Positions 7,288 to 22,867 of a stretch of 64,000 nt of DNA are shown here, in pieces (the stretch's first letter is position 1; every line of letters starts with the position of its first letter). Source of the stretch: Bacteroidaceae bacterium (GTDB lineage: Bacteria; Bacteroidota; Bacteroidia; Bacteroidales; Bacteroidaceae); assembly GCA_017651245.1 (NCBI GenBank), contig JAGCDQ010000022.1:1-64000 (forward strand). Direction: 5' to 3'. A model generated the notes under the pieces. The model was given only the letters and a program-made list of their open reading frames with translations, ran no database searches and was not told the origin of the DNA. The translations under genes were made by a program, and so were the position numbers.

Positions 7288-7314
7288 ATGTGAGTAATTA
7301 TTGAGTTGTTCTGT

Positions 7315-8928
7315 TTAGTCAGAGTAGCCAGGGTTCTGGGGCACGATGCCGAGTTCTTCGCCGTTGGAACCGTAGGGGATGGGGAAGCGGTAGAAGTGGC
7401 CGTTGATGTGCTCATACTTAGCCTTGAGGAAGCGGTGGATGCGAGCGAAGAAGGTGTTCACCTCGTTGCCGTCGCGGCCGATGCCGCCCACTGTGGCGTA
7501 TGAGTCATCGTAATGTTCGAAGTCCTTCACGGTCAGCACTGTGGCGATGAGGTTCTTCCAGCGGGTGAGGTTCTGCCAGTGACGCTGCTCATATATGAAT
7601 TCATACTCCCATTCCTTCTGAATGTCTTCGAGTGTCGGGTTGCTGATGGCGTAGTTGCCCTGGCTCTTGAAGCCGCGCTTGCGAATCTCGTTGAGAGGCT
7701 GTTCAGCATCCCTGCTCCGACCGAGCTGTACGAGTGCCTCTGCCTTGTTGAGGAGTACCTCGGCGTAGCGGATCTCGATGCGGTCAACTGCGTTGTTGAG
7801 CTGGGTTTCCCAGAGCGTTGTGGAACCGCTGCGGTCAACACCCTTGCCATAGGCGGGAAGTGTCACAGGAGGGAAGTAGGTGTGCACTGAACCGTCGCGT
7901 GGGTCTGTAATCTCGGTCACGAGGGAGAAGGCCTTGCGGGGGTCGTTGTCTGGCCAGTTCTCGAAGGTGTGGATGGGCTGGATGTGAATGACCGTAGTGG
8001 TCTCCTCGAAGGGGTTCGTCCATGCACAGTGATTCTGGTGGTTGCCCTGCTGGTCGATGCCGTCACCCTCGTGGTAGATGGTGAAGATTTGCTCTGGACC
8101 ACGGCTCTCGTTGTAGAGTCCGAAGAGGTCTTCGAAGTTGGGCTGCAAGCTGTAGCCGAGGTCTTTCACCTTGTCGGCATACTTGATCACCTCGTTCAGA
8201 TAGCTGGTGTTCCAGGCCTTTGGAGCAGGGTCAACGCGAGAAGTCTGGATGGCCTTCACCTCGTCGAAGCTTAGTGGCACACTGGCCCACTGCAGATAGA
8301 CACGGGTGAGCAGAGCATAGGCAGCACCCTTGCTGGGGTTGACAGGTGAAGTGGGGTGATCTGGCAGCACCCCGGCAGCCTCGGTCAGGTCTTTCACCAC
8401 CTGGGTATAGACCTTATCGATAGACTCGCGCTCCGTCTTGTTGGCATCGGCGGTGGAGAGGCGCAATGGCACTTCGCCCCACAGCACCGTAAGCCAAGAG
8501 TAGAAGAGGCCGCGAGAGAACTTGGCTTCTGCCACCACGAGTTCCTTCTCCGACTCGGTCAGCTTGCTGGATGCTTCTGCCTTCTCGATGGCATCGTTCA
8601 CTGCACCGATACTGTTATAGAGAGCGTTGAAGGTCTTGACTGAGTAGGAGCCTTCCTTGTCATACTCCAGCGTCACCATCTTGGTCACGTTGTCTTCCTC
8701 ATTGCCCAGATAGGAGGTGCCCAATTCTGTGGGGGTGTCCACCATGGACGTGAATGTGGAACTGAGGGTTTGATAGGGGCGGTAAGCACCACGGATGAGT
8801 GCTTCTGCTTCTTGCAGGGTCTGAAGCTCCTGCACCAGGTTGCCGCCTTCGTCGTTGTCGCTGCATGATGTGAGGCCTGATGCCAGAGCTGCGGCGAAAA
8901 GGACTGAATAAAGATGAGTCTTTTTCAT
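7315..8928 (-). CDS. SusD/RagB-family outer membrane lipoprotein
   Basis: A 537-residue lipoprotein (signal ending SGLTSCSDNDEGG) with the helical TPR-like SusD fold: LQEAEALIRGAYRPY near the N-terminus, AKFSRGLFYSWLTVLWGEVPL in the middle, and RIEIRYAEVLLNKAEALVQLG near residue 390. It forms the lid of the SusC barrel encoded upstream. The 189-bp gap to SusC holds its own promoter with the regulon palindrome, so SusD and the following M20 enzyme can be expressed separately from SusC. The ligand is unknown. Confidence 0.92.
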   Translation of the reverse strand: MKKTHLYSVLFAAALASGLTSCSDNDEGGNLVQELQTLQEAEALIRGAYRPYQTLSSTFTSMVDTPTELGTSYLGNEEDNVTKMVTLEYDKEGSYSVKTFNALYNSIGAVNDAIEKAEASSKLTESEKELVVAEAKFSRGLFYSWLTVLWGEVPLRLSTADANKTERESIDKVYTQVVKDLTEAAGVLPDHPTSPVNPSKGAAYALLTRVYLQWASVPLSFDEVKAIQTSRVDPAPKAWNTSYLNEVIKYADKVKDLGYSLQPNFEDLFGLYNESRGPEQIFTIYHEGDGIDQQGNHQNHCAWTNPFEETTTVIHIQPIHTFENWPDNDPRKAFSLVTEITDPRDGSVHTYFPPVTLPAYGKGVDRSGSTTLWETQLNNAVDRIEIRYAEVLLNKAEALVQLGRSRDAEQPLNEIRKRGFKSQGNYAISNPTLEDIQKEWEYEFIYEQRHWQNLTRWKNLIATVLTVKDFEHYDDSYATVGGIGRDGNEVNTFFARIHRFLKAKYEHINGHFYRFPIPYGSNGEELGIVPQNPGYSD

Positions 8929-9014
8929 GTTGTGTTTCCTTTCTTTTGTTTTGTTTTACTTTGTATTATTATTAATTGTGTTGGTAATGAAAGTCTCCTT
9001 TCTAAAATCCGGTG

Positions 9015-9085
9015 CAAAGTTACGGACATTTCGCGATTGTCGTCATACCCATGATGTTGTATATTTACTACCCTGAATATGGTAT
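9015..9085 (-). promoter_or_regulatory. Internal promoter and regulon palindrome between susC and susD
   Basis: The minus strand has a perfect -7 box TAACTTTG (9015-9022) inside the same GAAATGTCCGTA-CTTTGCA context as at 5817 and 13178. A degenerate palindrome CTACCCTGAATATGGTAT lies at 9068-9085, centred 58 bp from the -7 centre. A promoter between susC and susD is unusual, because these genes are normally strictly co-transcribed. Confidence 0.55.
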
Positions 9086-9117
9086 CCACAGTGTAACTTA
9101 CTGATACTGTATGAGTT

Positions 9118-12100
9118 TTAGAAGTGTATTTCTGCTCCAAAGGAGAAGGTGCGGCTCTTGGGATAGGCTCCTTGGTCCACACCTGTGGTCAGTTCGGGGT
9201 CATATCCCTTGTAGCGGGTGAAGGTGAGGAGGTTCTGCCCGCTGGCAAAGACGCGGATGCTCTGGATGGCATGGCGGAACTTGAAGGTGTAGCCTGCCGT
9301 CAGGTTCTGCAGCTTCAGATAGCTGGCATCCTCCACGTAGCGGCTGTCCAGATAAGACGTGGCCATGTAGCCTGTAAGGGCTGGCACATCGGTGTGGGTG
9401 TTGGTGGGTGTCCAGCTGTTCTTCACTGTGGCCAGTGCGTTGTAGCTGCCCGAGGGGTTCTCCAGATAGCGGCGCAGCAAGTTGGCTGCCTCTGCTCCGT
9501 GCGATCCCTTGAAGGAAATGCTGGCATCGAAGTTCTTCCACTTCAGATTGGCCGAGATACCATAGTAGAAGTCGGGTTGCTGGCTGCCCAGAATGGTCAG
9601 GTCGTAGGTGCTGATGGTGCCGTCGGGCACACCGTTGGGGCCGCTGATGTCGCGCAGGATGGCCTTGCCCGTCTGAGGGTCAACACCGTCGAAGATGAGT
9701 CCGTAGAGCGATCCCACTTCCTTGCCCTCCTGTAGCACGTTCTCCCACAGCTGTCCGCTGGTCAGCTTCTTGGTCTGTCCCATGTAGGTCAGCTCGTTCT
9801 TGTTGTGGGTGAAGTTGGCGGCAGCCGAGAGTTTCAGTTTGCGGCGGTTGATGATTTGGGCATCTACGCCCAGTTCGATGCCCTGGTTCACCACGTTGCC
9901 CACGTTCTGCAGCTGCTGGGTCACACCTGTGGAGGAGTTGACAGGTTGGTAGAGCAGCAAGTCGGAGGTCTTCTTCCAATAGTAGTCGATGACGAAGTTG
10001 AGCCTTCCGTTCCAGACGCCCACGTCGGTGCCCACGTTGAAGCTGGTGGTGGTCTCCCACTTCAGGTTCTCGTTGCCCAGGTTGCCCATCGTGTAGGCTG
10101 TCTGACCTCCGTAGCTGCTGGCGGTGTAGGAGGTGGCATACTCGTAGTCGCCAATCTCCTGATTGCCCACGGTGCCGAAGCTGGTGCGCAGCTTCAGGTG
10201 AGAGAGCCAGTGGGCAGAGGCGAGGAACGATTCCTTGTCCACGTTCCACGAGAGGCCGATGGATGGGAAGTACCCCCATCGGTGATTCTTCGAGAATCGG
10301 CTGGAGCGGTCGGCGCGGAAGGTGGCGGTCAGGTTGTAGCGGTCGAGCAGAGTATAGTTCACACGTGCGATGATGGAGTTGAGGGTGGACTTGCTCTGTC
10401 CCGATGTGGGTGTATAGACATGGGAACCGGCACTGAGATTGTTGTAACCGAGATCCTCGTTGGTGTAGTGCGAGGTGGTGCTGGTGTTGAAGTTGGTGCG
10501 GGTGCTCTGGGTGGTGTAGCCGATGAGGGCGTTGATGAAGTGGGCATCGGTGAGCTGCTTCTCATAGTCGAGCGTCCACTCCGTCTGCACAGTCTGGTTC
10601 TGCCGATGGCCAATGCTGCCCACACCGCCTTCGTTCAGACCCAGTGCCGTGTAGGATGGCGCAAAGTAGTTCTGCGTGATGTTGTTGACATTGGCACCCA
10701 CGGCGGCTTTGGCTATTAGTCCCTCGATAATAGTATATTTGAGCGATGCGTTGACCAGTGCATAGTTGTTGATGCTCTCGGCAGTGGTGTTCTTCAGGTC
10801 TGACACAGGGTTGGCAGCCTTGCCGTTGAGTTTGAAGTAGGCGTTCTCGTAGGGGTTGTTGTAGTTGTAGGAACCGTCGGCGTTATAGACGGGCACTACA
10901 GGAGGCATGAAGAGGGCGTAGGTGAGCGAGTTGGTGATGCCAGCAGCGAAGGGTGATGACTGATAGTTGACGGGCTGTGTGGTGCTTAGGGCGTTCTGAG
11001 TAGTCTTGCCGATGGTCGATGAGAGAGTGACCTGGAATTTCTGCGAGATTTTGTGGTCAATGTTGGCGCGCAGGTTGTAGCGTTCGAAGTCGGAGTTGAG
11101 CACAATGCCCTGCTGGTTGGTGAAGTTGGCTGACAGCAGGAAGCGGGTCTTGTCGGTGCCTCCGTTCACGCTCACTTCGTGAATCTGGCTGACTGCCGTG
11201 CGGAGCACTTCGTCCTGCCAGTCGGTGCCCTTGCCCAGCAAGGCGATGTCGGCATCCGTGTAGCCGCCTCTGTTGCCGAAGTAGTCCTTCTCCATCTGAG
11301 CCCAGTCGTGTGCATTGAGCAGTTTCAGTTTCTTCGAAGGAGTGTTGACCGACAGGGTGCCTTTGTAGCGGATGTCGGTCTTGTTGTACTGCCCTTTCTT
11401 GGTCGAGACGATGATAACGCCGTTGGCACCGCGCGAACCATAGATGGCCGTAGCGGAGATGTCCTTCAGCACCTCAATTCGCTCGATGTCGCTGGGATTG
11501 ATGAACGAGAGCGGGTCGAGCGAACTCTCGATGTCGCCGATGCCTGTCGATTGTGCCGAAGCGTCGTTGTAGTAGATAAACCCATCGATGACGTAGAGGG
11601 GATTGTTGCTGGCATTCACCGAGTTGCCGCCTCGGATGCGGATGTTGCTGCCCGCTCCAGGCTGTCCGCCAGCCGTCACCTCCACGCCTGTCACCGCTCC
11701 GCCCAAGGCGGCATCGATGGTGGGAGCAGGGAAGTCTTCCAGCAGGTCGGCACCGATGGTGGCCACCGAACCGGTCAGTTGCGTGCGGCTTTGTGTGCCG
11801 TAGCCCACCACCACCACATCGTTGAGGTAACTGCGTTTTTCTGTGAGTTTTACGTTGATCTCCTCCTCATCGTCATAAACCGTGACAGTTTGAGGTTTGT
11901 AGCCTGTGAAACTGATGTTCAACTTGACGGGCAGTGACTTCACATCAATAGTGAAATGTCCGTCGATATCTGTCATCACACCTTTTCCGTCACCATATTT
12001 CACGGTGGCTCCGATGATGCTCTCTCCTGATGTGGCATCCGTGATGGTGCCCTGCACTGTTTGCGCCAAAATCGCAAAAGTGGAAGCGACGGTCAGAACC

Positions 12101-12129
12101 GCCGCTAAAAACAATCTTTTCTGTAACAT
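9118..12129 (-). CDS. SusC/RagA-family TonB-linked outer membrane transporter
   Basis: A 1003-residue protein with a signal peptide, an N-terminal carboxypeptidase-regulatory-like domain (VQGTITDATSGESIIGATVK, about residues 24-100), the DVVVVGYGTQ box, a plug with the RIRGGNS and PLYVIDG signatures, and a long beta-barrel ending in FSFGAEIHF. It imports ligands captured by the SusD partner. The gene is 90 bp downstream of the binding-protein-like gene; no terminator with a U-tract separates them on this strand, so both are probably read from the promoter at 13178. The barrel is of ordinary SusC length. Substrate unknown. Confidence 0.93.
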   Translation of the reverse strand: MLQKRLFLAAVLTVASTFAILAQTVQGTITDATSGESIIGATVKYGDGKGVMTDIDGHFTIDVKSLPVKLNISFTGYKPQTVTVYDDEEEINVKLTEKRSYLNDVVVVGYGTQSRTQLTGSVATIGADLLEDFPAPTIDAALGGAVTGVEVTAGGQPGAGSNIRIRGGNSVNASNNPLYVIDGFIYYNDASAQSTGIGDIESSLDPLSFINPSDIERIEVLKDISATAIYGSRGANGVIIVSTKKGQYNKTDIRYKGTLSVNTPSKKLKLLNAHDWAQMEKDYFGNRGGYTDADIALLGKGTDWQDEVLRTAVSQIHEVSVNGGTDKTRFLLSANFTNQQGIVLNSDFERYNLRANIDHKISQKFQVTLSSTIGKTTQNALSTTQPVNYQSSPFAAGITNSLTYALFMPPVVPVYNADGSYNYNNPYENAYFKLNGKAANPVSDLKNTTAESINNYALVNASLKYTIIEGLIAKAAVGANVNNITQNYFAPSYTALGLNEGGVGSIGHRQNQTVQTEWTLDYEKQLTDAHFINALIGYTTQSTRTNFNTSTTSHYTNEDLGYNNLSAGSHVYTPTSGQSKSTLNSIIARVNYTLLDRYNLTATFRADRSSRFSKNHRWGYFPSIGLSWNVDKESFLASAHWLSHLKLRTSFGTVGNQEIGDYEYATSYTASSYGGQTAYTMGNLGNENLKWETTTSFNVGTDVGVWNGRLNFVIDYYWKKTSDLLLYQPVNSSTGVTQQLQNVGNVVNQGIELGVDAQIINRRKLKLSAAANFTHNKNELTYMGQTKKLTSGQLWENVLQEGKEVGSLYGLIFDGVDPQTGKAILRDISGPNGVPDGTISTYDLTILGSQQPDFYYGISANLKWKNFDASISFKGSHGAEAANLLRRYLENPSGSYNALATVKNSWTPTNTHTDVPALTGYMATSYLDSRYVEDASYLKLQNLTAGYTFKFRHAIQSIRVFASGQNLLTFTRYKGYDPELTTGVDQGAYPKSRTFSFGAEIHF

Positions 12130-12219
12130 GTTGGATGAAGTTTTTTGTGCCAGCCCAAGTGCTGGGCGATTTTTTAATTCTCAATTGTCAACAATCATCT
12201 TTTTTATTTTCTCCTTCTT

Positions 12220-13125
12220 TTAATTGTTTTGTGCCAAAAGCTTGAGTTGGCTCTCCACCTCCTTGTTGGTCAGATGAAGGAAACCTGCTGCATGGTTGTA
12301 CTGCTGTCCGTCGCGAACAATCCACTGAAGGAACTGTTCGATGTCGGCATCGAAACTGTCGTAAGTGAAGCCGATGTCTTCTACAGGGATGAGGTCGATG
12401 TCCTCGTTCTCAATCAATTCAAGTGTTTCGTCGAGGTTGCCCGAACGGAGTGCCTCGCGTTGGCTTGCCTTCACACCGAGTGGCAACAGGACGAGGTCGC
12501 TGCGAAGGGTGCGGGAAGAGAGGTCGTAGAGATTGCTCAAGGCATTGAAGGTGACGGAAGCTTTATCTTCGTTGATGGCTGAGAGCAAATAGAAGTCGTC
12601 GCCAGCGATGCGGTTGCCACGCAAATCATCGGAGGTGCGTCCGAAATGAGAAGCAAAGATACCAGAGAGGGAAGCCTTGCTGCTACCTGAATACACGGTC
12701 AGCTTGTCCTTCAGCTTGTTGTGCTTTCCTTCCACTTCTTCCTCATATTCCTCGTCGAGGTCTTCAGCCGTGAAGAACAGGCTCTTGATGTCCTTGCTCT
12801 TCCACTCCTTCTTCTGAATGTCATTCAGCAAAGGGTTTTCTGCCGTAGTGACGGGCAGCAGGGCATAACGAGCCACGTAGGTGACTTGTGCTCCCTCCTG
12901 ATGACTGCTCACCAATGTGAGGTCGGCGTCAGCGTTCTTGCCACTCACCACCGCAATCTCCACATTGGGCTGGACGGCCTTGTATGCCTCAATCCACTTT
13001 TCCACCAGGGCTTTGCTTGCCTTGTTCACTTTCACTGTAATCACACCGTCGTTCTGAGACGTTGCTGCACTCACTGTGAGTGTCACCGTTGCAAATGCTG
13101 CTATCAAAAATGCTTTAACGTTCAT
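12220..13125 (-). CDS. Secreted PstS-like periplasmic binding-protein-fold protein
   Basis: From the ATG at 13125 the product is 301 residues with a clear signal peptide (MNVKAFLIAAFATVTLTVSA). The frame extends 24 codons further upstream, but those residues are not signal-like and would overlap the promoter region. The start of the mature protein (ITVKVNKASKALVEKWIEAY, then ADADLTLVSS, YALLPVTTAENPLL and the DIKSLFF segment) resembles substrate-binding proteins of the PstS/ModA type. No ABC permease or ATPase lies nearby; the next gene is SusC. It may buffer or present a ligand in the periplasm for the SusCD/M20 system. Fold assignment is moderate and the ligand is unknown. Confidence 0.65.
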   Translation of the reverse strand: MNVKAFLIAAFATVTLTVSAATSQNDGVITVKVNKASKALVEKWIEAYKAVQPNVEIAVVSGKNADADLTLVSSHQEGAQVTYVARYALLPVTTAENPLLNDIQKKEWKSKDIKSLFFTAEDLDEEYEEEVEGKHNKLKDKLTVYSGSSKASLSGIFASHFGRTSDDLRGNRIAGDDFYLLSAINEDKASVTFNALSNLYDLSSRTLRSDLVLLPLGVKASQREALRSGNLDETLELIENEDIDLIPVEDIGFTYDSFDADIEQFLQWIVRDGQQYNHAAGFLHLTNKEVESQLKLLAQNN

Positions 13126-13177: not shown

Positions 13178-13247
13178 CAAAGGTACGGACATTTCACCTA
13201 CCCCGAAATCCCTTTGATGAGGGATGCATCTACCATAAATGTGGTAG
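13178..13247 (-). promoter_or_regulatory. Promoter and perfect regulon palindrome of the binding-protein/SusCD operon
   Basis: The minus strand has TACCTTTG (13178-13185) as -7 box and TTTC (13205-13208) 19 bp upstream. The perfect palindrome CTACCATAAATGTGGTAG lies at 13230-13247, with its centre exactly 57 bp from the -7 centre. The 18-mer is identical to that before cysK (15278-15295). The leader before the ATG at 13125 is about 45 nt. Confidence 0.7.
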
Positions 13248-14104: not shown

Positions 14105-15286
14105 ATGGAAAAAGCAACGATAGCGATTGATACGAAATTGCCGAGGCAAGATGCATACGGGGCGATTGCCGTGCCGGTGTATCACACGGCGGCATACGAG
14201 TTTGAGACGGCAAAGGATATGGCAGATGCCTTCTGTGGAAGAGTGCTGGCACCCGATTATTCGAGAGTGATGAACCCGACGGTGATGCACTTGGAGGAAA
14301 CGGTGAAGGCATTGACTGGAGCAACGAACGTGTTTGCCTTCTGCTCGGGTATGGCTGCCATCTCCAATGCGCTCCTTGCAGTGGTGGAACAGGGAAAGAA
14401 CATCGTCACATCGAGCCATCTCTTTGGCAATACTGTGGCACTGACGACCAAGACATTGGCGCGATTAGGCGTGGAAACCAAGCAAATCAATCTGCTGGAT
14501 CTCGATGCTGTACGCAATGCCATCGATGAGAACACAGCTTGCCTCTATCTGGAGATTGTCACCAATCCGCAGTTGGAAGTGGCAGACCTCTCAGCATTGG
14601 CAGAGATAGCTCACGAACGGAACATTCCCCTCATTGCCGACACGACAGTCATTCCCTTCACACAGTTCAGTGCCAAGGCATTAGGCGTGGACATCGAAGT
14701 GGTGAGCAGCACGAAATATATCTCTGGCGGAGCCACTTCCTTAGGTGGATTGGTCATCGACTATGGCACCTTCCCTGTGGTGAACCAGCGCATCCGTTTC
14801 GAACTGCTCTTCAACGTGGGCAGTTACATGTCGCCTCATGCCGCCTATATGCAGTCGCTGGGATTGGAAACACTCGATGCCCGCTATCGGGTACAATCGG
14901 CCAATGCGTTGGCGTTGGCAAGGAAACTGCAAAGTGTGCCTGAAATCAAGCGGGTGAACTACATTGGTCTGGAGGACAACCCCTTCTATGCTTTGGCACG
15001 CAAGCAGTTTGGCGAGACGAGTGGTGCGATGCTCACCATCGATTTGGCGGACAAGCAGGCCTGCTTCCACTTCATCGACCACTTGCAGCTCATCCGCAGG
15101 GCAACAAACCTCTTCGACAACAAGACCCTCGCCATCCATCCTTACAGCACCATCTTCGGTCCTTTCAGTCGTAGTCAAAAGCAGGCAATGGACGTGTTTG
15201 ACACTACCATCCGTCTTTCCGTAGGACTGGAAGACGTGGACGACATCTTCGCTGACATCGTGCAGGCAGTCGAGGGACTACCATAA
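14105..15286 (+). CDS. metY: MetY-like O-acetylhomoserine sulfhydrylase (Cys/Met PLP enzyme)
   Basis: Starting at the ATG at 14105 the protein has 393 residues and the full Cys/Met-metabolism PLP fold: DYSRVMNPT near residue 51, the SGMAA PLP phosphate loop at 81-85, and the Schiff-base Lys K204 in SSTKYISGG. Enzymes of this group add sulfide, or a protein thiocarboxylate, to O-acetylhomoserine to make homocysteine; methionine gamma-lyase and cystathionine enzymes are close relatives. Beside a sulfur-carrier/E1/JAMM set, the thiocarboxylate-dependent MetY role known from Wolinella succinogenes is attractive. The stop codon lies inside the palindrome that controls cysK, so the two transcription units touch. 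Confidence 0.8.
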   Translation: MEKATIAIDTKLPRQDAYGAIAVPVYHTAAYEFETAKDMADAFCGRVLAPDYSRVMNPTVMHLEETVKALTGATNVFAFCSGMAAISNALLAVVEQGKNIVTSSHLFGNTVALTTKTLARLGVETKQINLLDLDAVRNAIDENTACLYLEIVTNPQLEVADLSALAEIAHERNIPLIADTTVIPFTQFSAKALGVDIEVVSSTKYISGGATSLGGLVIDYGTFPVVNQRIRFELLFNVGSYMSPHAAYMQSLGLETLDARYRVQSANALALARKLQSVPEIKRVNYIGLEDNPFYALARKQFGETSGAMLTIDLADKQACFHFIDHLQLIRRATNLFDNKTLAIHPYSTIFGPFSRSQKQAMDVFDTTIRLSVGLEDVDDIFADIVQAVEGLP

Positions 15287-15347
15287 ATGTGGTAGATGAA
15301 TACCGCACGGGTGGGATTTCGTGAATGGCTGAAAACCACGAACTTTG
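15278..15347 (+). promoter_or_regulatory. Promoter and perfect regulon palindrome of the cysK-carrier-encapsulin operon
   Basis: CTACCATAAATGTGGTAG lies at 15278-15295 and includes the metY stop codon. TTTC (15317-15320), a 19-bp gap and GAACTTTG (15340-15347) form the promoter. The palindrome-to--7 centre distance is 57 bp, as at 13178 and 5817. GGGATTTCG at the -33 position is also shared with the promoter at 13178. The leader before the cysK ATG is about 30 nt. Confidence 0.7.
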
Positions 15348-15385: not shown

Positions 15386-16321
15386 ATGGCAACAAAAATC
15401 GCAAACAGCTTGGTGGAACTGATAGGCAAGACTCCACTACTGGAACTTTCAAAAACAAAGAAAAAGCAGAAACTCCAAGCACGGGTGTTGGCAAAGCTGG
15501 AGTATCTGAACCCCGGCAGAAGCGTAAAGGATCGCGTGGGTTATGCTTTGATTGAGGAGGCAGAACGACAGGGCTTGCTCAATCGCAACACTGTCATCAT
15601 CGAACCCACCAGCGGTAACACAGGTGTGGGACTGGCGTTGGTGGCGGCTCAGCGTGGCTACAAACTCATCTTGACAATGCCTGACAGTATGAGTGTCGAA
15701 CGCAGGACTCTCCTGAGAAGTCTGGGCGCGAAACTGGTGCTCACTCCTGCTTACGAGGGAATGCCTGGAGCCATTCGCAAGGCTCAGGAATTGGCTGCAG
15801 AAACCAATGCCTTCATTCCTCAGCAGTTTGTCAACGAAGCAAATCCACAGATTCATCGCAAGACGACCGCCAAAGAAATTTGGGAAGATACAGCAGGAAG
15901 AGTGGATATCTTTGTAGCTGGCGTAGGCACAGGCGGCACCATCACGGGTGTGGGCGAAGTATTGAAGAGCCTGAATCCTAAAGTAAAGGTGGTGGCTGTT
16001 GAACCTTACGACTCTCCAGTATTGTCGGGAGGCAAACCTGGACCTCACAAATTGCAGGGTATCGGAGCGGGCTTCACGCCACAAGTGCTGAACACGGAGG
16101 TCTATGACGAAATCTTCAAAGTGAAGAACGAGGACGCTTTTGCAGTAGCCCGACAGTTGGCAAAGACGGAAGGTGTGTTGGTGGGAATCTCCAGCGGTGC
16201 TGCCGCTCATGCTGCCATCGAAATTGCCAAACGACCTGAAAATGCAGGCAAGACCATCGTGGTGCTGTTGCCCGATACAGGTGAGCGTTACCTCAGCACA
16301 GCACTTTTCTCAGAAGAATAA
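15386..16321 (+). CDS. cysK: Cysteine synthase (O-acetylserine sulfhydrylase)
   Basis: From the ATG at 15386 (30 codons inside the longest frame, past the promoter) the enzyme has 311 residues. It carries NPGRSVKDR with PLP-Lys K48, the TSGNTG substrate loop at 75-80, the GTGGTITG phosphate loop and GIGAGFTP, all typical of CysK/CysM. It makes cysteine from O-acetylserine and sulfide. In mycobacteria a CysM relative uses a carrier thiocarboxylate (CysO) instead of free sulfide. Here the next gene encodes such a carrier, so this enzyme may do the same. It heads the operon that runs to the terminator at 21634. Confidence 0.9.
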
Positions 16322-16350
16322 AATTATCACATACAAAAAACTTCATCATT

Positions 16351-16566
16351 ATGGCTAAATTAATTGTAAACGGAGAAGACCAAGAGGTTCAGCTCCCTGC
16401 TACTGTAGCAGACTTAATCAAACAGAACAATGTGGCACAACCCGAAATGGTAAGTGTGCAGGTGAACGAGGAATTTGTGGACAGAGAGGAGTTCGCCACC
16501 CTTCAACTCAATGAAGGTGACGAAGTGGACTTCTTGTATTTCATGGGAGGTGGTGCGTATGTTTGA
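16351..16566 (+). CDS. ThiS/MoaD-like sulfur carrier protein with C-terminal extension
   Basis: A 71-residue ubiquitin-like carrier: MAKLIVNGEDQEV starts the beta-grasp fold, and the C-terminus reads DFLYFMGGGAYV. The Gly-Gly that must be terminal for adenylation is followed by three residues (AYV or, counting the third Gly, GAYV), so the gene makes a pro-carrier. Carriers with residues after the Gly-Gly, such as QbsE and Wolinella HcyS, are trimmed by a JAMM protease, and a JAMM gene lies 1.6 kb downstream in this operon. The E1 gene starts inside its last codons (8-bp overlap), which supports tight coupling. Thiamine synthesis is unlikely because no other thi gene is present. Confidence 0.88.
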   Translation: MAKLIVNGEDQEVQLPATVADLIKQNNVAQPEMVSVQVNEEFVDREEFATLQLNEGDEVDFLYFMGGGAYV

Positions 16567-17368
16567 TTTCACAGAAGAAGAACTGAACCGATACTCGCGT
16601 CACATCCTCTTGCAGGATGTAGGCGTGGAAGGTCAGGAAAAAATACGCGAGGGCAAGGTGCTCGTGATTGGTGCTGGCGGTTTGGGTGCTCCAGTGGCGA
16701 TGTATCTTGCGGCGGCAGGTGTAGGTACCATTGGCATCGTGGATGGCGATGTGGTCGATTTGAGTAACCTGCAACGTCAGATCATTCACACTACAGCTGA
16801 TGTGGACAAGTGGAAGGTGGAATCTGCTAAAGAAACCATCAACGCCATCAATCCCCATGTGAAGGTGAATGCGCATCGTGAATTCCTGATGGCAGACAAT
16901 GCGCTCGACCTTATCAAGGAGTACGATTTTGTGGTGGATGGAACAGACAATTTCCCTGTGAAGTTCCTCATCAATGATGCTTGTGTAATGGCTGGTAAGC
17001 CCTTCAGTCATGGTGGCATCCTGAGATTTGAGGGACAGACGTTCACGCATCTTCCAGGTACAGCATGTTACCGCTGTATGTTCAAGACACCGCCACCAGC
17101 AGGAGCTGTACCAACGTGCAGTCAGGCAGGTGTGTTGGGAGCCATCGCTGGTATGCTCGGAACCATTCAGGCAGCAGAGACATTGAAGTATCTGACAGGC
17201 GTGGGTGAACTGCTCACCAACAAGCTGCTCACATTCAACGCCAAGACGATGGATTTCCGCAAGATTAATGTGAAGAAAACGGACAAGTGCCCTATCTGTG
17301 GCACCAACCCGACAGTAACAGAATTGATTGATTACGAACAGGCTGCTTGCGACCTCAAAAATCATTGA
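16559..17368 (+). CDS. ThiF/MoeB-type E1-like adenylyltransferase for the sulfur carrier
   Basis: The start at 16559 overlaps the carrier gene and gives 269 residues, standard for MoeB/ThiF. It has RYSRHILLQDVG, the ATP-binding GAGGLGAPVA (38-47), the catalytic Arg-containing LSNLQRQI, DGTDN, a candidate Cys C187 (VPTCSQAG), and a zinc site of CYRC (170-173) with CPIC (244-247). It adenylates the Gly-Gly terminus of the carrier, ready for sulfur transfer. It lacks the rhodanese domain some relatives have, so sulfur must come from another protein. The DsrE- and TusA-like proteins next door and the desulfurase at the operon end are the likely donors. Confidence 0.9.
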   Translation: MFDFTEEELNRYSRHILLQDVGVEGQEKIREGKVLVIGAGGLGAPVAMYLAAAGVGTIGIVDGDVVDLSNLQRQIIHTTADVDKWKVESAKETINAINPHVKVNAHREFLMADNALDLIKEYDFVVDGTDNFPVKFLINDACVMAGKPFSHGGILRFEGQTFTHLPGTACYRCMFKTPPPAGAVPTCSQAGVLGAIAGMLGTIQAAETLKYLTGVGELLTNKLLTFNAKTMDFRKINVKKTDKCPICGTNPTVTELIDYEQAACDLKNH

Positions 17369-17372
17369 TGAT

Positions 17373-17852
17373 ATGGCAGAACAGAACAAACTTTCATTGA
17401 TTGCCTTCTCTGGCGATTTCGACAAACTGACAGCAGTTTTCACGTTAGCGACAGGAGCAGCAGCTGTGGGCTATGAGGTCAACATCTTCTTCACCTTCTG
17501 GGGCTTGGACGCCATCAAACAAAAAAGAGGACGTTCTTTCATCGGTAGCAACTGGCTGACAAAGATCTTCGGCTTTATGATGGGTGGTCTCAGTGTTGCT
17601 CCCAACAGCCGCTTTAACTTTGGTGGCATCGGTCCACAGATTTTCCGTTCCCTGATGCGGAAAAAGAATGTGGCGACGCTGGAAGAACTCGTTGATGCTG
17701 CTAATGCCTTGGGCGTAAACCTCTACGCCTGCGAAATGGCGATGCACGTGCTCGGACTGGAGAAAAAGGATTTTATCCAAGAAGTGAAGGACGTGCTGGG
17801 CGTGGCAACCTTCCTCAAAATCAGCGAAGGCGGACAAACATTATTTATATAA
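17373..17852 (+). CDS. DsrE/DsrF-like sulfur-transfer protein
   Basis: The start at 17373, 4 bp after the E1 stop, gives 159 residues (MAEQNKLSLIAFSGDFDKL). The fold signature is of the DsrE2-like group: the TGAAAVGYEVNIFFTFWGL segment, an insertion with FGFMMGG, and a Cys in NLYACEMAMHVLGL that matches the reactive Cys of this family. Related proteins bind sulfur as persulfide and pass it to TusA-like partners. A TusA-like gene follows at once, as in several sulfur oxidation and relay loci. The insertion is hydrophobic, so membrane or shell contact is possible (inference). Confidence 0.85.
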   Translation: MAEQNKLSLIAFSGDFDKLTAVFTLATGAAAVGYEVNIFFTFWGLDAIKQKRGRSFIGSNWLTKIFGFMMGGLSVAPNSRFNFGGIGPQIFRSLMRKKNVATLEELVDAANALGVNLYACEMAMHVLGLEKKDFIQEVKDVLGVATFLKISEGGQTLFI

Positions 17853-17883
17853 ATGGTAAATCTTCAAATTGTAAATTAAAATT

Positions 17884-18108
17884 ATGGCAACATATACATT
17901 AGATATCACCAAAGAGCATTGTCCGATGACATTCGTGAAGACAAAGCTCAAGCTGGCACAAATCGCAGCTGGCGACACTTTGGAAGTCCTTCTCACAGAA
18001 GGCGAACCACTGGAGAATGTTCCTCGTTCTGCAAGGGAACAGGGTTATAACGTTCTCAGTGTGGAACACGTAGAAGGTAACGTACACAAGGTAACGATAT
18101 TAAAGTAA
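17884..18108 (+). CDS. TusA-like sulfur relay protein
   Basis: A 74-residue protein of the TusA/SirA fold (YTLDITKEHCPMTFVKTKLK ... GDTLEVLLTEGEPLENVPRS). The persulfide Cys is C13 in CPMTFVK; the family motif is CPxP, so the usual Pro is replaced by Thr here. It lies 31 bp after the DsrE-like gene. In known systems TusA takes persulfide sulfur from a cysteine desulfurase and hands it to downstream partners. Here it could link the encapsulated desulfurase to the activated carrier. Confidence 0.88.
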   Translation: MATYTLDITKEHCPMTFVKTKLKLAQIAAGDTLEVLLTEGEPLENVPRSAREQGYNVLSVEHVEGNVHKVTILK

Positions 18109-18120
18109 TTGATCATTCGT

Positions 18121-18519
18121 ATGAACGTGATTATCACAGAATCGACCTATCAGTCCATCTTGGCACAAGCACAGAAGGATGCCCCCGTGGAATCATGCGG
18201 TTACCTGCTCGGCACGGACAAGGAAACGGCAACGGAGAACTATCCGATGACGAATGTTGACCACTCCGAAGAGCATTTCAGCTTCGACCCCAAGGAGCAG
18301 TTTGCAGCCATCAAATATGCCCGCAAGAAAGGACTGACCATCGTGGGCAATTGGCACAGCCATCCAGCCTCTCCTTCACGTCCATCTGAGGAAGACAAAC
18401 GGTTGGCATACGACCCCAACATTCTCTACTTCATCCTCTCTTTGGCAGAGGAAAAACCTGTATTAAACGCCTTCCGCATTGAGGAGGGCGAAGTAAAAGA
18501 AAAGTATCCACTTAGATAA
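18121..18519 (+). CDS. JAMM/Mov34-type metalloprotease (carrier-processing)
   Basis: From the ATG at 18121 the protein has 132 residues. All JAMM zinc residues are present: E24 (PVESCG), H79 and H81 (NWHSHP), S89 and D92 (SEED). Stand-alone bacterial JAMM proteins next to ThiS-like carriers remove extra residues after Gly-Gly (QbsD) or release the finished amino acid from the carrier (mycobacterial Mec, Wolinella HcyD). Both roles fit here, since the carrier ends GGGAYV and amino-acid-forming PLP enzymes lie in the same locus. Confidence 0.9.
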   Translation: MNVIITESTYQSILAQAQKDAPVESCGYLLGTDKETATENYPMTNVDHSEEHFSFDPKEQFAAIKYARKKGLTIVGNWHSHPASPSRPSEEDKRLAYDPNILYFILSLAEEKPVLNAFRIEEGEVKEKYPLR

Positions 18520-18551
18520 ATTAATTATTCACATTTCATCATTAGAAGAAC

Positions 18552-19991
18552 ATGGCAGACAACAACATTCAGCGCAGCATCACGACTGCAACGGCTCGCA
18601 AATTGGCGAACACCACCAAGACGCCCCCTCAGATGGGCAGTATTACACCGAGACTCCTCCTCAAGCTCCTTCCTTGGACTCAGGTGGAAAGTGGCACCTA
18701 TCGTGTGAACCGCACGAAAGTGGAACTGAAAAAGGCTGAACGCATCGAGATTCAGTACTTCGATGGCGTGCCAAGTTTCACGGCAAAGAATCTTCGTGCC
18801 ATCCCACTCTTCCAGAACATCAAGCAGGAGATTGTGGCGCGTTTGGCTCGCAACTTCGTGCCAGTGGAAGTGTCACGTGGCAAGAACCTTGTCACTCAGG
18901 GTAAGGACAAGCAGCGTTTCTTCATCGTGGCTAATGGTCAGGCTGAGGTGATCAGCACGGGTACTCATGGTGAAGAACTCCGCATTGCTCTGTTGGGCAA
19001 TGGTGAGTATTTCGGAGAGGCAGACTTGCTGAGTGCTGCAGATTCTACTGTCAGTGTCCGTTCTGTGACTGACTCCGTGTTCCTGGTACTTGACACACCC
19101 GTGTTGGAATCGCTCATCGAGGAAATTCCAGATTTCCGTGAGCAGTTCAACAATGCTGTGGACAAGCAACTTCGTCTGAAGGCGACAGTGAATGAACATG
19201 GCGAGAAACACATAGACCTTGTGAGTGGTCATGAGGAGGACAACGTCATCCCAGAGACATACATTGATTACGAAGAGAATCCTACGGAGTACTCACTCAA
19301 CACTTTGCAGACAGTGGTGCGTGTTCACACCCGTGTAAGTGACCTCTACAATGCGCCATACAACCAGTTGGAACAGCAGCTGCGTCTCTCCATTGAGAGC
19401 ATCAAGGAACGTCAGGAGTGGGAGCTCATCAACAACAAGAAATTTGGTTTGTTGGCTCAGACAGCTCCTGGCTATAAGATTAGTGCTCGCTATGGTGCAC
19501 CAACCCCAGATGATCTGGATGAACTGCTTTCACTCGTTTGGAAGGAACCAGCATTCTTCATTGCCAATCCTCGTGCCATCGCAGCTTTCGAACGTGAGTG
19601 CACTTGGCGTGGTGTGCCTCCTGTGGCCATCGACCTCTTTGGCACAAAAGTGATTACTTGGCGTGGTGTGCCAATCATCCCATCCGACAAGGTGGAGGTG
19701 AAGGGACAGTACTTGACCAATCGTGGTGTAGGAACGACAGACATCATCCTCGTGCGTGTGGGTGAGAAAGAGCAGGGCGTGGTCGGTCTTCATCAAGCAG
19801 GCATCCCAGGCGAAATTGCTCCAAGCCTCTCAGCGCGTCTGATGGGTCTCGATCAGTATGGCGTGGCAAGCTACTTGCTCACCAAGTACTTCAGCCTTGC
19901 TTCACTCACAGACGATGCCATTGCCGTTCTGGAGAACGTGGAGGTAGGCTACTACCATGATTATCAGCACAGAAACAAGATTGAGAAGTGA
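18552..19991 (+). CDS. Family 2B encapsulin shell protein with cyclic-nucleotide-binding-like domain (SrpI-like)
   Basis: A 479-residue HK97-fold shell protein of encapsulin family 2. The N-arm (ARKLANTTKTPPQMGSITPR, LLLKLLPWTQVESGTYRVNR) closely follows cyanobacterial SrpI. A cNMP-binding-like domain is inserted at about residues 85-205 (VARLARNFVPVEVSRGKNLV, LGNGEYFGEADLL), which defines family 2B. The HK97 core resumes at about 230 with FGLLAQTAPGYKI and GVPPVAIDLFGTKVITWRGV. In the cNMP domain the conserved Glu is present (E156), but the phosphate-contacting Arg appears replaced (S165 in AADSTVSVRS), so nucleotide binding is doubtful. It is followed directly by a cysteine desulfurase with a long N-terminal leader, the known cargo type. 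Family 2A shells carrying this cargo store sulfur. Confidence 0.93.
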   Translation: MADNNIQRSITTATARKLANTTKTPPQMGSITPRLLLKLLPWTQVESGTYRVNRTKVELKKAERIEIQYFDGVPSFTAKNLRAIPLFQNIKQEIVARLARNFVPVEVSRGKNLVTQGKDKQRFFIVANGQAEVISTGTHGEELRIALLGNGEYFGEADLLSAADSTVSVRSVTDSVFLVLDTPVLESLIEEIPDFREQFNNAVDKQLRLKATVNEHGEKHIDLVSGHEEDNVIPETYIDYEENPTEYSLNTLQTVVRVHTRVSDLYNAPYNQLEQQLRLSIESIKERQEWELINNKKFGLLAQTAPGYKISARYGAPTPDDLDELLSLVWKEPAFFIANPRAIAAFERECTWRGVPPVAIDLFGTKVITWRGVPIIPSDKVEVKGQYLTNRGVGTTDIILVRVGEKEQGVVGLHQAGIPGEIAPSLSARLMGLDQYGVASYLLTKYFSLASLTDDAIAVLENVEVGYYHDYQHRNKIEK

Positions 19992-19993
19992 TT

Positions 19994-21583
19994 ATGTATT
20001 TGAACGAGTTAGATAACTTTCACTTTGACTTGCCAGATTTGGGAACAGCACCACAGGTGGCAGTGCCGAATGCGGCACCTGACGAGTTGGACTTGTCAGC
20101 CCTGCCCATCCCTGCTGCATCAATCCCTGTGGGGACTGTGGATGCTCCTCAAATAGGAAGTCTGAGTGCCGCTGACGAGGAACTCTTCAGGGGAGTCATC
20201 GCCAAATATTTTTCAGATGAAGTGCCATCGGCATCCTCCTCTGGAAAGGCAGACGATGTACAACCGGAAAAGAAGAATTGTCTGCTCAAGGATAACGGCT
20301 TCGGCATCGGGATACCCGAAACGGACATCGTGCGAAACCTCCACTACGACGAGGCAGACACAGTGAACACCGAAGAAATCCGCAAGCAGTTCCCTATTCT
20401 CCATCAGAAGGTGAACGGTCACGACCTCGTGTGGTTCGACAATGGTGCGACCACCCAGAAGCCGCTGCGGGTTATCGACGGATTGAGCGAGTTCTACAAG
20501 ACGGACTACTCGAACATCCATCGTGGTGCCCACACGTTGGCAGCACGAAGCACCGACCAGTATGAAGGTGCCCGTGAGAAAGTGGCTCGCTTCATCAATG
20601 CCCCTGCTAAGGAGAACATCCTCTTTGTGCGTGGCACGACGGAGGGCATCAATCTGGTGGCACAGACGTTCGGCAGGAAGTTCTTGGAGAAAGGTGACAA
20701 CGTGATTGTCTCCACCCTCGACCACCATGCTAATATCGTGCCTTGGCAGCAGATGTGCAAATTGCAGGGTGCGGAACTCCGTGCCATCCCCATCGACAAG
20801 AATGGCGACCTCATCCTCTCGGAATTGGAACAACTCATCACGCCCCACACCAAGTTCATTAGCGTGGGACATGTGAACAATACTTTCGGTACTATCAACG
20901 ATGTGGAGAGCATCATCCGTACTGCTCATTCCCACAACATCCCCGTGCTTATTGACGGCGCACAGTCCATCGCCCACACGAAGGTGGATGTGCAGCAACT
21001 CGACTGCGACTTCTTCGTGTTCTCTGGTCATAAGATTTATGGACCTTCAGGCATCGGAGTAGTGTATGGCAAGAAGGAGTGGCTCGAACAGCTGCCACCA
21101 TGGCAAGGCGGAGGCAACATGATCAAAGATGTGACTATCGAACACACCGAGTTCAATGCGCCACCAGCACGATTCGAAGCAGGTACACCCAATATTGCCG
21201 ATGCCATCGGCTTGGGCTATGCACTTGACTTCGTGCAGAGTGTGGGTATCCACAATATCGAACGTCACGAACACGAACTCACAGAATATGCCCGTCAACA
21301 GATTAGTCGCATTCCAGGCATCACCATCATGGGCAATCCCAAGAAGCGTGTGAGTGTCATCTCCCTCGACATCCCTGGCATACCCGCCCCACAAGTAGGA
21401 CAACTGCTTGATAAAGAAGGCATCGCTGTCCGTGCAGGTCATCACTGTGCACAGCCAGCCTTGCGAGCACTGGGTTACGAGATGTCTGTACGTCCTACGT
21501 TTGCAGTCTATAACACCAAGGAGGAAGTGGATCGATTGGTCATCGCACTCCAGAAAATTGTAGCAGACGTGCAGAAAAGATAA
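19994..21583 (+). CDS. SufS-type cysteine desulfurase with N-terminal encapsulation leader (cargo)
   Basis: The ATG at 19994 (a GTG at 19988 overlapping the shell-gene stop is the alternative) gives 529 residues. Residues ~1-125 are an Ala/Pro/Asp-rich, low-complexity leader absent from ordinary SufS proteins; it includes a short predicted helix (ADEELFRGVIAKYFSDEV) and a Gly-Ile patch (KDNGFGIGIPETDIVRN). The enzyme proper begins at EEIRKQFPILH and has DNGATTQKP, the PLP Lys in FSGHKIYGPSG, and the persulfide Cys in RAGHHCAQP, so it should be active. It turns cysteine into alanine plus protein-bound sulfur. No other suf or isc genes are present, which argues against a housekeeping Fe-S role. 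It ends the operon. Confidence 0.93.
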   Translation: MYLNELDNFHFDLPDLGTAPQVAVPNAAPDELDLSALPIPAASIPVGTVDAPQIGSLSAADEELFRGVIAKYFSDEVPSASSSGKADDVQPEKKNCLLKDNGFGIGIPETDIVRNLHYDEADTVNTEEIRKQFPILHQKVNGHDLVWFDNGATTQKPLRVIDGLSEFYKTDYSNIHRGAHTLAARSTDQYEGAREKVARFINAPAKENILFVRGTTEGINLVAQTFGRKFLEKGDNVIVSTLDHHANIVPWQQMCKLQGAELRAIPIDKNGDLILSELEQLITPHTKFISVGHVNNTFGTINDVESIIRTAHSHNIPVLIDGAQSIAHTKVDVQQLDCDFFVFSGHKIYGPSGIGVVYGKKEWLEQLPPWQGGGNMIKDVTIEHTEFNAPPARFEAGTPNIADAIGLGYALDFVQSVGIHNIERHEHELTEYARQQISRIPGITIMGNPKKRVSVISLDIPGIPAPQVGQLLDKEGIAVRAGHHCAQPALRALGYEMSVRPTFAVYNTKEEVDRLVIALQKIVADVQKR

Positions 21584-21633: not shown

Positions 21634-21677
21634 AGCCCCGTGCAATCTGTGAAGACTGCATGGGGCTTTTTTCTTTA
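21634..21677 (+). terminator. Rho-independent terminator of the sulfur/encapsulin operon
   Basis: AGCCCCGTGCA (21634-21644) pairs with TGCATGGGGCT (21657-21667) with one G-T position, and a T-rich tract (TTTTTTCTTT) follows. It lies 50 bp after the desulfurase stop and closes the operon that begins at cysK. Confidence 0.88.
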
Positions 21678-21712: not shown

Positions 21713-22867
21713 ATGATATATGATTTTGATAAACCCATTGACCGAAGAGGGTCGGGCGATTTGAAGCACGAGGTGCTGGAAGAAAGATATGGACGGAGTG
21801 ACTTGTTACCGCTTTGGGTGGCTGATATGGATTGGGAAACCCCGGACTTCATCACAGATGCCCTGAAGCAACGCTTGGAACACTCCTTGTTCGGCTACAC
21901 GGTCGAACCTAAGGACTATTGGCCAACGGTGCAGCAATGGATTGAGACCCACCACCAATGGAAAGTGGAACGTGAATGGATGACCTACATCCCTGGCATC
22001 GTGAAGGGCATCGGCATGGTCATCAACTTCTTCCTGAAGTCCGATGAGAAGGTGATTGTGCAACCGCCTGTTTATCACCCGTTCTATCTGACGCCAAGGG
22101 GTAACAAGCGAGAGGTGGTGTGGAATCCGCTGAAAAATTACGAGATGGACTTCGACCAACTCGAACAAGTGTGTGATGACAAGTGCCGCCTGCTGATTCT
22201 TTCCAATCCCCACAACCCAGCTGGCATCGTGTGGGACAGGGAAACGTTGCAACGCTTGGCTCATTTTGCCAAAGAGCATCACCTCATTGTCATCAGCGAC
22301 GAGATTCATTGTGATATGGCGTTGTGGGACAACAAGCACATCCCTTTTGCCTCCGTGAGTGACGAGGCGTCAGAGGTGAGCATCACGTTTGGTGCACCGA
22401 CCAAGACGTTCAATATGGCGGGGATTGTGAGTTCATGGGGCATCATTCCCAACGAAGAACTGCGCAAGCCTTTTTACAGATGGTTGACTGCCAACGAGCT
22501 GAACGAACCTCATCTCTTTGCCCCCATCGCTACCATTGCTGCCTTGCAACAGGGGGAGGAATGGCGGCAACAGATGCTCCGATATGTGGAAGGCAACATT
22601 GACTTCCTCATCGACTATTGCCAGAAGTATATTCCGAAAATCAAGCCTCTGCGTCCTCAGGCCTCTTTCCTCGTCTGGCTCGACTGCCGTGAGTTGGGCC
22701 TGAACCACAAGGAACTCAACGATCTCTTTATCAACCAAGTCCATCTTGCTCTCAACGATGGCGAGATGTTTGGTGCTGGCGGCGAGGGTTTTATGCGCAT
22801 GAATGTGGGTACCCAAAGAAGTGTGTTGAAAGCGGCGTTGGAACGGTTGAAAGCGGCGCTTATATAA
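21713..22867 (+). CDS. MalY/PatB-family PLP enzyme (cystathionine beta-lyase-like)
   Basis: A 384-residue fold-type I aminotransferase-like enzyme. It starts MIYDFDKPIDRRGSGDLKHE, carries LPLWVADMDW (the PatB/MalY signature), SNPHNPAG, the SDEIHCD loop and the PLP Lys in GAPTKTFNMAG. Members cleave the C-S bond of cystathionine or cysteine S-conjugates, giving homocysteine, pyruvate and ammonia. Placed right after the sulfur operon it extends the transsulfuration capacity of the region. True aminotransferase activity cannot be excluded. Confidence 0.88.
   Translation: MIYDFDKPIDRRGSGDLKHEVLEERYGRSDLLPLWVADMDWETPDFITDALKQRLEHSLFGYTVEPKDYWPTVQQWIETHHQWKVEREWMTYIPGIVKGIGMVINFFLKSDEKVIVQPPVYHPFYLTPRGNKREVVWNPLKNYEMDFDQLEQVCDDKCRLLILSNPHNPAGIVWDRETLQRLAHFAKEHHLIVISDEIHCDMALWDNKHIPFASVSDEASEVSITFGAPTKTFNMAGIVSSWGIIPNEELRKPFYRWLTANELNEPHLFAPIATIAALQQGEEWRQQMLRYVEGNIDFLIDYCQKYIPKIKPLRPQASFLVWLDCRELGLNHKELNDLFINQVHLALNDGEMFGAGGEGFMRMNVGTQRSVLKAALERLKAALI

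Follow-up and report, generated by a model that had tools for sequence, protein, structure and literature searches.

A sulfur-carrier module inherited together with a family 2B encapsulin and a leader-bearing cysteine desulfurase in Bacteroidaceae

The first 64,000 nucleotides of contig JAGCDQ010000022.1, from a Bacteroidaceae bacterium (assembly GCA_017651245.1), are the window analyzed here. On its plus strand an operon brings together genes for a family 2B encapsulin shell, a SufS-type cysteine desulfurase with a long N-terminal leader, the sulfur-transfer proteins TusA and DsrE2, and a module made up of a ThiS-like carrier, an E1-like adenylyltransferase and a JAMM metalloprotease. The genetic and evolutionary coupling of shell and module is almost certainly real. 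We consider it probable that the operon is a carrier/E1/JAMM sulfur-assimilation hub in which the encapsulated desulfurase serves as the source in place of, or in addition to, sulfite reductase, with sulfur relayed from the desulfurase through TusA to the carrier and on to a sulfhydrylase.

The operon begins 99 bp behind metY and runs in the order cysK, carrier, E1, dsrE2, tusA, JAMM, shell, desulfurase and terminator:

14105..15286, plus strand: MetY-like Cys/Met metabolism pyridoxal phosphate enzyme, probable O-acetylhomoserine sulfhydrylase and likely acceptor enzyme (PF01053, 319 bits)
15386..16321, plus strand: CysK, cysteine synthase A (TIGR01139, 460 bits, cut-off 351)
16351..16566, plus strand: ThiS-like sulfur carrier of 71 amino acids (TIGR01683, 65.5 bits, cut-off 37.5)
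16559..17368, plus strand: E1-like (MoeB/ThiF) adenylyltransferase of 269 amino acids, no rhodanese domain (PF00899, 282 bits, cut-off 28)
17373..17852, plus strand: DsrE2-type sulfur-transfer protein of 159 amino acids (PF13686, 135 bits, cut-off 25)
17884..18108, plus strand: TusA sulfurtransferase with the motif HCPMTFVKTK (PF01206, 76 bits, cut-off 29)
18121..18519, plus strand: JAMM metalloprotease (Prok-JAB), proposed pro-carrier and/or adduct protease (PF14464, 91 bits, cut-off 25)
18552..19991, plus strand: family 2B encapsulin shell protein of 479 amino acids, HK97 fold with an inserted cyclic nucleotide monophosphate (cNMP)-like domain (NF041163, 557 bits, cut-off 400)
19994..21583, plus strand: SufS-type cysteine desulfurase with an N-terminal leader of about 125 amino acids, probable encapsulin cargo (TIGR01979, 557 bits, cut-off 475)
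21634..21667, plus strand: intrinsic terminator closing the operon (-24.4 kcal/mol, z -5.85, followed by TTTTTCTTT)

From cysK to the desulfurase, all eight genes exceed the curated cut-off for one or more of the matching families. For MetY the best NCBIfam match, TIGR01326 (317 bits), is under its cut-off of 495. The gaps within the run are 2 to 32 nucleotides long, and the E1 gene, starting at 16559, begins before the carrier gene stops at 16566. A first-pass annotation had described these eight genes as one uninterrupted plus-strand run with small gaps, downstream of metY and closed by a terminator at 21634. Its coordinates and strands proved correct and the curated models returned the families it named, the 2B shell among them. 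Two of its descriptions were sharpened. The DsrE-like protein does belong to the DsrE family, as the DsrE2 type, and the desulfurase does carry a long leader, starting more likely at ATG 19994 than at GTG 19988 because close relatives start MYLNELDNF. The terminator hairpin was absent from the output of a simple terminator scan; none of 200 shuffles folds as well. A contig chimera is ruled out, as the gene set recurs in many independent assemblies.

To see how far this arrangement is kept, we searched with an alignment of seven Bacteroidales shells and retained the best 80 of at least 503 relatives. These are close relatives, with shells 80-98% identical. Ruminant or ruminant stomach is named in 34 of the 80 locus record titles, or 61 when the codes RUG and RUI are counted. 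Neighbors were called by phmmer with the window proteins (>60 bits, within 7 kb of the shell). Many loci are cut by contig ends, and 45 are full, with the contig continuing for 5 kb or more to either side of the shell. DsrE2, TusA and the desulfurase are each encoded in all 45 full loci, and carrier, E1 and JAMM together in 40 of them (65 of all 80). MetY is found in 39 of the 45, CysK in 31 and CysE in 10 (17 of all 80). Neighborhood conservation thus extends past shell and desulfurase; a limit to that pair would, by the first-pass annotation's own criterion, have refuted its idea of a coupled system. The genomes of the five full loci with no module nearby all carry JAMM elsewhere. They are among 11 of 18 genomes with JAMM elsewhere, the 18 having been searched because the module was unseen near the shell or apparently parted from it.

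Five placements of the module were seen: downstream on the same strand (23 loci), in the cysK-dsrE2 interval (18), divergent upstream (14), upstream of cysK (8) and other (2). On a quick maximum-likelihood shell tree of 81 rows, with 34 of 76 inner branches weakly supported and rows lacking a placed module left out of the count, placement changed at least 11 times. The module moves often yet stays within a few kilobases of the shell, so its linkage is probably under selection. The 40 full loci with a module divide into 23 with MetY and CysK, 13 with MetY only and four with CysK only. As MetY is there oftener than CysK, homocysteine is likely the module's more constant product and cysteine an additional one.

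Co-inheritance was measured in 301 genomes drawn evenly from the window's family (shell at E<=1e-60, module JAMM at E<=1e-12). The shell is encoded in 37, JAMM in 39, both in 35 and neither in 260 (Fisher p 8e-39, with shared ancestry ignored). Genomes with both are spread over nine genera; in the window's own genus an identical 14 of 21 genomes carry shell and JAMM. In four genomes (G315, G340, G357 and G462) the two lie on different contigs, so the link is more than adjacency. Across 295 Bacteroidales genomes the shell is above cut-off in seven, JAMM is present in 12 and both in six. At a loose E-value NF041163 matches 255 of these 295 genomes, by the matched ranges mostly through cNMP domains alone, and the seven above cut-off were used.

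The role of TusA is suggested by genomes that have the module without the shell. Ten shell-less Bacteroidales genomes with JAMM were taken from two draws (regions L160-L165 and L171-L174, some cut by contig ends). Five of them (G030, G212, G219, G320 and G527) encode a sulfite reductase of 773-794 amino acids with a C-terminal TusA domain, adjoining the module or at most 4 kb away. In a sixth, G123, apparent pieces of such a sulfite reductase-TusA protein were seen by eye at contig ends. Pfam profiles (NIR_SIR, NIR_SIR_ferr and TusA) were run on four of the hub reductases and six were aligned. Over 49 residues the window TusA shares 53% identity with the fused domain of the L174 reductase, CPM[TN]FVKTK included, and the carriers are 69% identical. 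In the family draw the sulfite reductase-TusA protein is encoded in eight of the 301 genomes, all with the module, six also with the shell and two without. The 39 module genomes comprise 29 with the shell alone, six with shell and reductase, two with the reductase alone and two with neither. Since the same module stands near a reductase with a fused TusA in shell-less loci, TusA is probably the socket of the carrier hub, taking sulfur from either the sulfite reductase or the encapsulated desulfurase for delivery to MetY or CysK.

Profile searches of the window genome, whose assembly is 86% complete, gave no match to NIR_SIR, ThiG or MoaE and no sulfite reductase-TusA. NIR_SIR was matched in three of 23 genomes drawn from the genus, leaving 20 without a detectable sulfite reductase.

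A few of these genomes show further features. Genome G064 carries the shell plus a second hub with sulfite reductase-TusA (L166) 20 kb away, and its 2B shell locus (L032, 770-6242) adjoins nitrogenase-like genes, judged by eye from the translations. Rrf2-like regulator genes were seen by eye near two hubs (L163, 3574-4014; L166, 11607-12044). The shell-less region of G330 (L172, 1664-5299) holds the module with CysK and CysE; no shell and no sulfite reductase-TusA were found there, and the DsrE2 and TusA frames between E1 and JAMM are shortened, which may reflect decay after shell loss or an assembly fault. The regions of G243 and G508 are cut.

By sequence criteria the shell is of family 2B, combining an SrpI-like HK97 domain (PF19307, 372 bits) with an internal cNMP-like domain (PF00027, residues 105-190) and scoring above cut-off on the curated model. 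The best solved relative is 9bje; residues 6-467 align with the solved chains 9bje, 9bix and 9bhu. Family 2B membership does not depend on cyclic nucleotide binding. In the cNMP-like domain, the position where phosphate binding is expected, which we take to correspond to that of CRP, has no Arg in the 74 of 81 rows readable by pattern (seven were unread). A cAMP-sensing shell is not supported, given these readable rows and the statement in an excerpt of PMC12407261 that cNMP is not bound by a 2B domain.

The desulfurase active-site C487 is kept in all 75 aligned copies and K349 in at least 97% of them. Against the curated 2A cargo model NF041166 the window protein scores 690 bits, under the cut-off of 800. 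A motif following LARLANEFFS, the published 2A cargo pattern (excerpt of PMC8049743), is present in 66 of the 75 leaders, the window's included, against a mean of 1.2 and a maximum of 6 in 500 shuffles, for a pattern shaped after seeing the leaders and uncorrected for kinship. The window genome encodes a second SufS on another contig (G000:C42), whose SufS-like part starts MYDINKVREDF without a leader. A housekeeping SufS role for the operon desulfurase was rejected in view of this leaderless copy.

The carrier ends FLYFMGGG-AYV, with AYV as a pro-carrier tail. The TIGR01683 alignment reaches G68, which is also the last conserved residue in an alignment of 11 carriers. In the survey, FMGGG is followed by 1 to 40 residues in all 66 carriers, with a median of 2 and no shared sequence; 2k5p, the nearest solved relative, has FLYFMGGGK as well. 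An invariant GGG with a variable extension past it, encoded beside a JAMM protease, has the look of a processed precursor. In the JAMM protein E24, H79, H81, S89 and D92 are kept in at least 97% of 65 copies. The Pfam scan gave no rhodanese match in the E1, and its C187 and six further cysteines, C170, C173, C244 and C247 among them, are kept in 67 of 67 copies. DsrE2 scores 71 bits on the NCBIfam model SulfCarrDsrE2, under the cut-off of 210, and its single cysteine is kept in 78 of 78 (C120 counted from ATG 17373, or C121 numbered one codon earlier). TusA C13 is kept in 79 of 79. The TusA of the window operon and those of the hub sulfite reductases read CPM[TN], apart from two with CPIN or CPFN, and the two closest solved TusA relatives read CPVP and CPYP. 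CPM[TN] is a possible subfamily mark of a carrier-loading TusA.

From the observed gene content, the conserved catalytic residues, the co-inheritance and the pairing of one TusA-carrier hub with either of two sulfur sources, we infer the following chemistry and direction of sulfur flow. A 2A shell is reported to store S0. By analogy with family 2A work, cysteine would enter the 2B shell, where the leader-loaded desulfurase would free its sulfur as persulfide or S0. Mobile sulfur would then exit as a small species or be passed on at the shell surface, to be bound by TusA C13 and DsrE2. The presence of both tail and protease suggests that JAMM would trim the variable tail behind the carrier GGG. 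E1 would next adenylate GGG, and TusA would give its sulfur to the acyl adenylate to yield a carrier thiocarboxylate. The E. coli MoaD-MoeB system is the precedent for this step: TusA there hands sulfur directly to MoaD-AMP on MoeB (introduction of PMC11302665), so the route from a desulfurase via TusA to an adenylated carrier has known chemistry behind it. In the last step MetY, together with CysK in loci that have it, would move the sulfur onto O-acetylhomoserine or O-acetylserine to make homocysteine or cysteine, and JAMM may also free the product from the carrier. Overall, the cell would bank the sulfur of surplus cysteine or divert it, chiefly to methionine, without free sulfide. We see about an even chance that the nanocompartment is a sulfur bank with a ubiquitin-like protein as its currency, from which TusA and DsrE2 withdraw onto the tail-processed carrier for spending on methionine and cysteine, and which over evolution is swapped with sulfite reductase on the same TusA-carrier socket.

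A co-regulated rhodanese has been suggested as the protein that naturally accepts sulfur from encapsulated desulfurases (excerpt of PMC8346489). The gene set described here names a concrete candidate chain of TusA, DsrE2, carrier, E1, JAMM and MetY/CysK, and does so in a genus where 20 of 23 genomes lack a detectable sulfite reductase. It suggests a route by which gut Bacteroidales may move shell-enzyme sulfur into cysteine and methionine without releasing free sulfide; if this is true, stored sulfur would be usable without free sulfide in rumen bacteria.

Several observations weigh against the proposed relay. In the 2A shell SrpI the five-fold pore measures 3.7 A across (excerpt of PMC8049743), and a pore of that size would bar TusA from a desulfurase in the lumen; sulfur would therefore have to exit as a small persulfide or sulfide species, unless TusA and DsrE2 were packaged or acted at the surface. 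Remaking cysteine from cysteine sulfur is futile unless storage or homocysteine is the point. Shells without the module occur in G500 and G521 (78% and 86% complete) and the module JAMM without the shell in G320, G330, G508 and G527, of which G330 and G508 also lack the reductase. The shell-less module of G144 has a free TusA and no reductase within 16 kb. A strict need for tail trimming is questioned by the shell-less hub carrier of L163, which ends at GGG, tailless, with JAMM still present. The absences in the window genome are soft, its assembly being incomplete, and the 80 surveyed loci are the closest of the relatives, with distant ones outside that survey. The last point comes from a draw of 296 genomes across the phylum, 48 of which encode the shell: the window's own genome, 42 in family f136, which from its genes appears to be Chlorobiaceae-like, and five matching only the 2A-like part. 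We read 20 of these regions, 17 from f136 and three 2A. The f136 regions hold the 2B shell and desulfurase with CysK (16 of 17), CysE (15 of 17) and a ThiS match (nine of 17), and none of the 17 has a TusA, DsrE2 or JAMM match, so the shell works without the hub elsewhere. The three 2A regions hold CysK, shell and desulfurase, one also CysE, with no match to the carrier module. As far as sampled, the link with TusA, DsrE2 and the carrier is a Bacteroidales trait.

Sulfur could also flow in the opposite direction, with carrier and CysK building cysteine from outside sulfur, TusA and DsrE2 loading the carrier from sulfide, polysulfide or thiosulfate, and the encapsulated desulfurase storing or detoxifying the surplus. 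We regard this as rather unlikely. It would explain why CysK and CysE accompany desulfurase shells without a carrier module in the f136 and 2A regions just described, and encapsulated desulfurases are said in an excerpt of PMC12407261 to take part in sulfur storage. The TusA domain of the shell-less hubs, on the other hand, is fused to a sulfur-producing enzyme, the sulfite reductase, which places TusA on the source side. Building cysteine from outside sulfur also sits poorly with a window genome in which no sulfite reductase was detected and with the 13 of 40 module loci that have MetY and no CysK nearby.

Less probable still is shared regulation without any transfer, in which shell with desulfurase and the carrier module would be parallel responses to sulfur limitation within one regulon. 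A LuxR-type regulator gene does lie at the operon, and a LuxR homologue is encoded within 7 kb of the shell in 34 of the 80 loci. A perfect palindrome is also present there:

15278..15295, no strand assigned: perfect 18-mer palindrome CTACCATAAATGTGGTAG over the metY stop, 90 bp ahead of cysK

An identical 18-mer stands at 13230-13247, ahead of the LuxR-type regulator gene. The window holds these two exact copies and four matches at up to two mismatches, a number reached by none of 100 shuffles. Among close relatives, a similar palindrome is found 65 bp ahead of cysK in L038 and L041. Any such site is present in three of the 80 loci, where four matches compare with 1.3 expected from base composition, and the case for a wider regulon via the palindrome is weak. 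Co-regulation alone would not readily account for shell and module being inherited together almost one to one, non-adjacent cases included, nor for TusA and DsrE2 staying close upstream of the shell, with a TusA that resembles that of the sulfite-reductase hub.

Ubiquitin-like tagging, in which the carrier would be conjugated to proteins as SAMPs are and removed by JAMM so as to control shell or desulfurase, is very unlikely. It draws on variable carrier tails that need processing and on the best NCBIfam match of JAMM being desampylase (78 bits, cut-off 130) and an E1 score of 328 bits on the model of the SAMP-activating E1 UbaA (cut-off 450), both under cut-off, but all 40 full loci with the module also encode an acceptor sulfhydrylase and the shell-less homologues lie in or near sulfur-assimilation loci. 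Least credible is a thiamine ThiS or MoaD that lies near the shell by accident: the carrier scores above the TIGR01683 thiS cut-off and ThiS stands with thiamine genes beside the shell in Chlorobiaceae-like genomes, but we rejected this role because ThiG and MoaE are missing from the window genome, ThiG being found in eight of the 23 genus genomes (15 without, the window's included) and eight of 14 controls, and MoaE in none of the 23 and 11 of the 14 controls.

In the f136 genomes, four of the five regions viewed in detail (L207, L212, L216 and L219) encode ThiG- and ThiH-like proteins by eye, and in three of these four ThiS ends at GGG, tailless. Eight regions (L208, L209, L210, L212, L216, L217, L219 and L225) have the 2B shell and desulfurase near ThiS and an E1/ThiF gene, which is a different setting for shell and ThiS. 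Iyer et al. (2006) had earlier pointed out ThiS next to genes of cysteine synthesis in Chlorobium and Pelodictyon (excerpt of PMC1779556).

Divergent from the sulfur operon, an M20 peptidase, SusD, SusC and a solute-binding-like protein with no Pfam match are encoded on the minus strand at 6004-13125. SusC and the binding protein perhaps take up a sulfur compound. These upstream uptake genes were rejected as components of the system, SusC, SusD and the binding protein being near the shell in 14, six and 13 of the 80 loci. The M20 peptidase count of zero in 80 is uninformative, because in the window this gene and the shell are some 11 kb apart, beyond the 10 kb to which the loci extend. Directly behind the terminator, at 21713-22867, is a PatB-family C-S lyase gene; a PatB homologue is within 7 kb of the shell in six of the 80 loci.

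The Wolinella homocysteine pathway consists of HcyS, HcyD, HcyF and MetY. Wolinella is among the species of Table 1, row 4e, of Iyer et al., where a hub of carrier, E1, JAB, SirA/TusA and O-acetylhomoserine sulfhydrylase was predicted in 2006 with sulfate or sulfite as the source, SirA (TusA) being predicted to replace the missing rhodanese (PMC1779556). The window operon shares the ThiS-like carrier, the JAB protease, the rhodanese-less E1, SirA/TusA and the O-acetylhomoserine sulfhydrylase with that row, and has shell and desulfurase where the row 4e operons hold genes for sulfate/sulfite transport and reduction (PMC1779556). No sulfite reductase, which belongs to that hub, was found in the window genome; other sulfate genes were not searched for. 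In mycobacteria, the E1 working with CysO, CysM and Mec+ is MoeZ, which has a rhodanese. That system (row 4d of the same table, PMC1779556) resembles the window's in carrier, JAMM and cysteine synthase and differs in having no shell.

The E. coli IscS-TusA-MoaD/MoeB system likewise passes sulfur from a desulfurase through TusA to an adenylated ThiS/MoaD carrier (PMC11302665, introduction). Its IscS is free, there is no shell and the product is molybdopterin. We know of no JAMM in that system. Family 2B encapsulins with cysteine desulfurase cargo were described by Andreas and Giessen (2021; excerpt of PMC8346489). With these the window operon has in common the cNMP-like insert and an adjacent leadered SufS-type desulfurase, and a serine acetyltransferase is sometimes near; the enriched accessories given in that excerpt are serine acetyltransferase and rhodanese, whereas here they are TusA, DsrE2, carrier, E1 and JAMM (PMC8346489). 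The 2A SrpI/CyD compartment also loads its desulfurase by an N-terminal domain, with a leader motif of the same pattern (excerpt of PMC8049743), but is without the cNMP-like insert, and no carrier module was matched in the three 2A regions. In the open-licence literature, supplements being outside the search, no paper was found that pairs an encapsulin with a thiocarboxylate or with TusA, and papers on encapsulins and Prevotella are unrelated to this coupling by title and start of abstract. Within that literature and among the matches listed, the first-pass suggestion that the joining of a nanocompartment to a carrier relay had not been described before stands. What is new here is a second kind of sulfur source apparently plugged into a known carrier-TusA hub.

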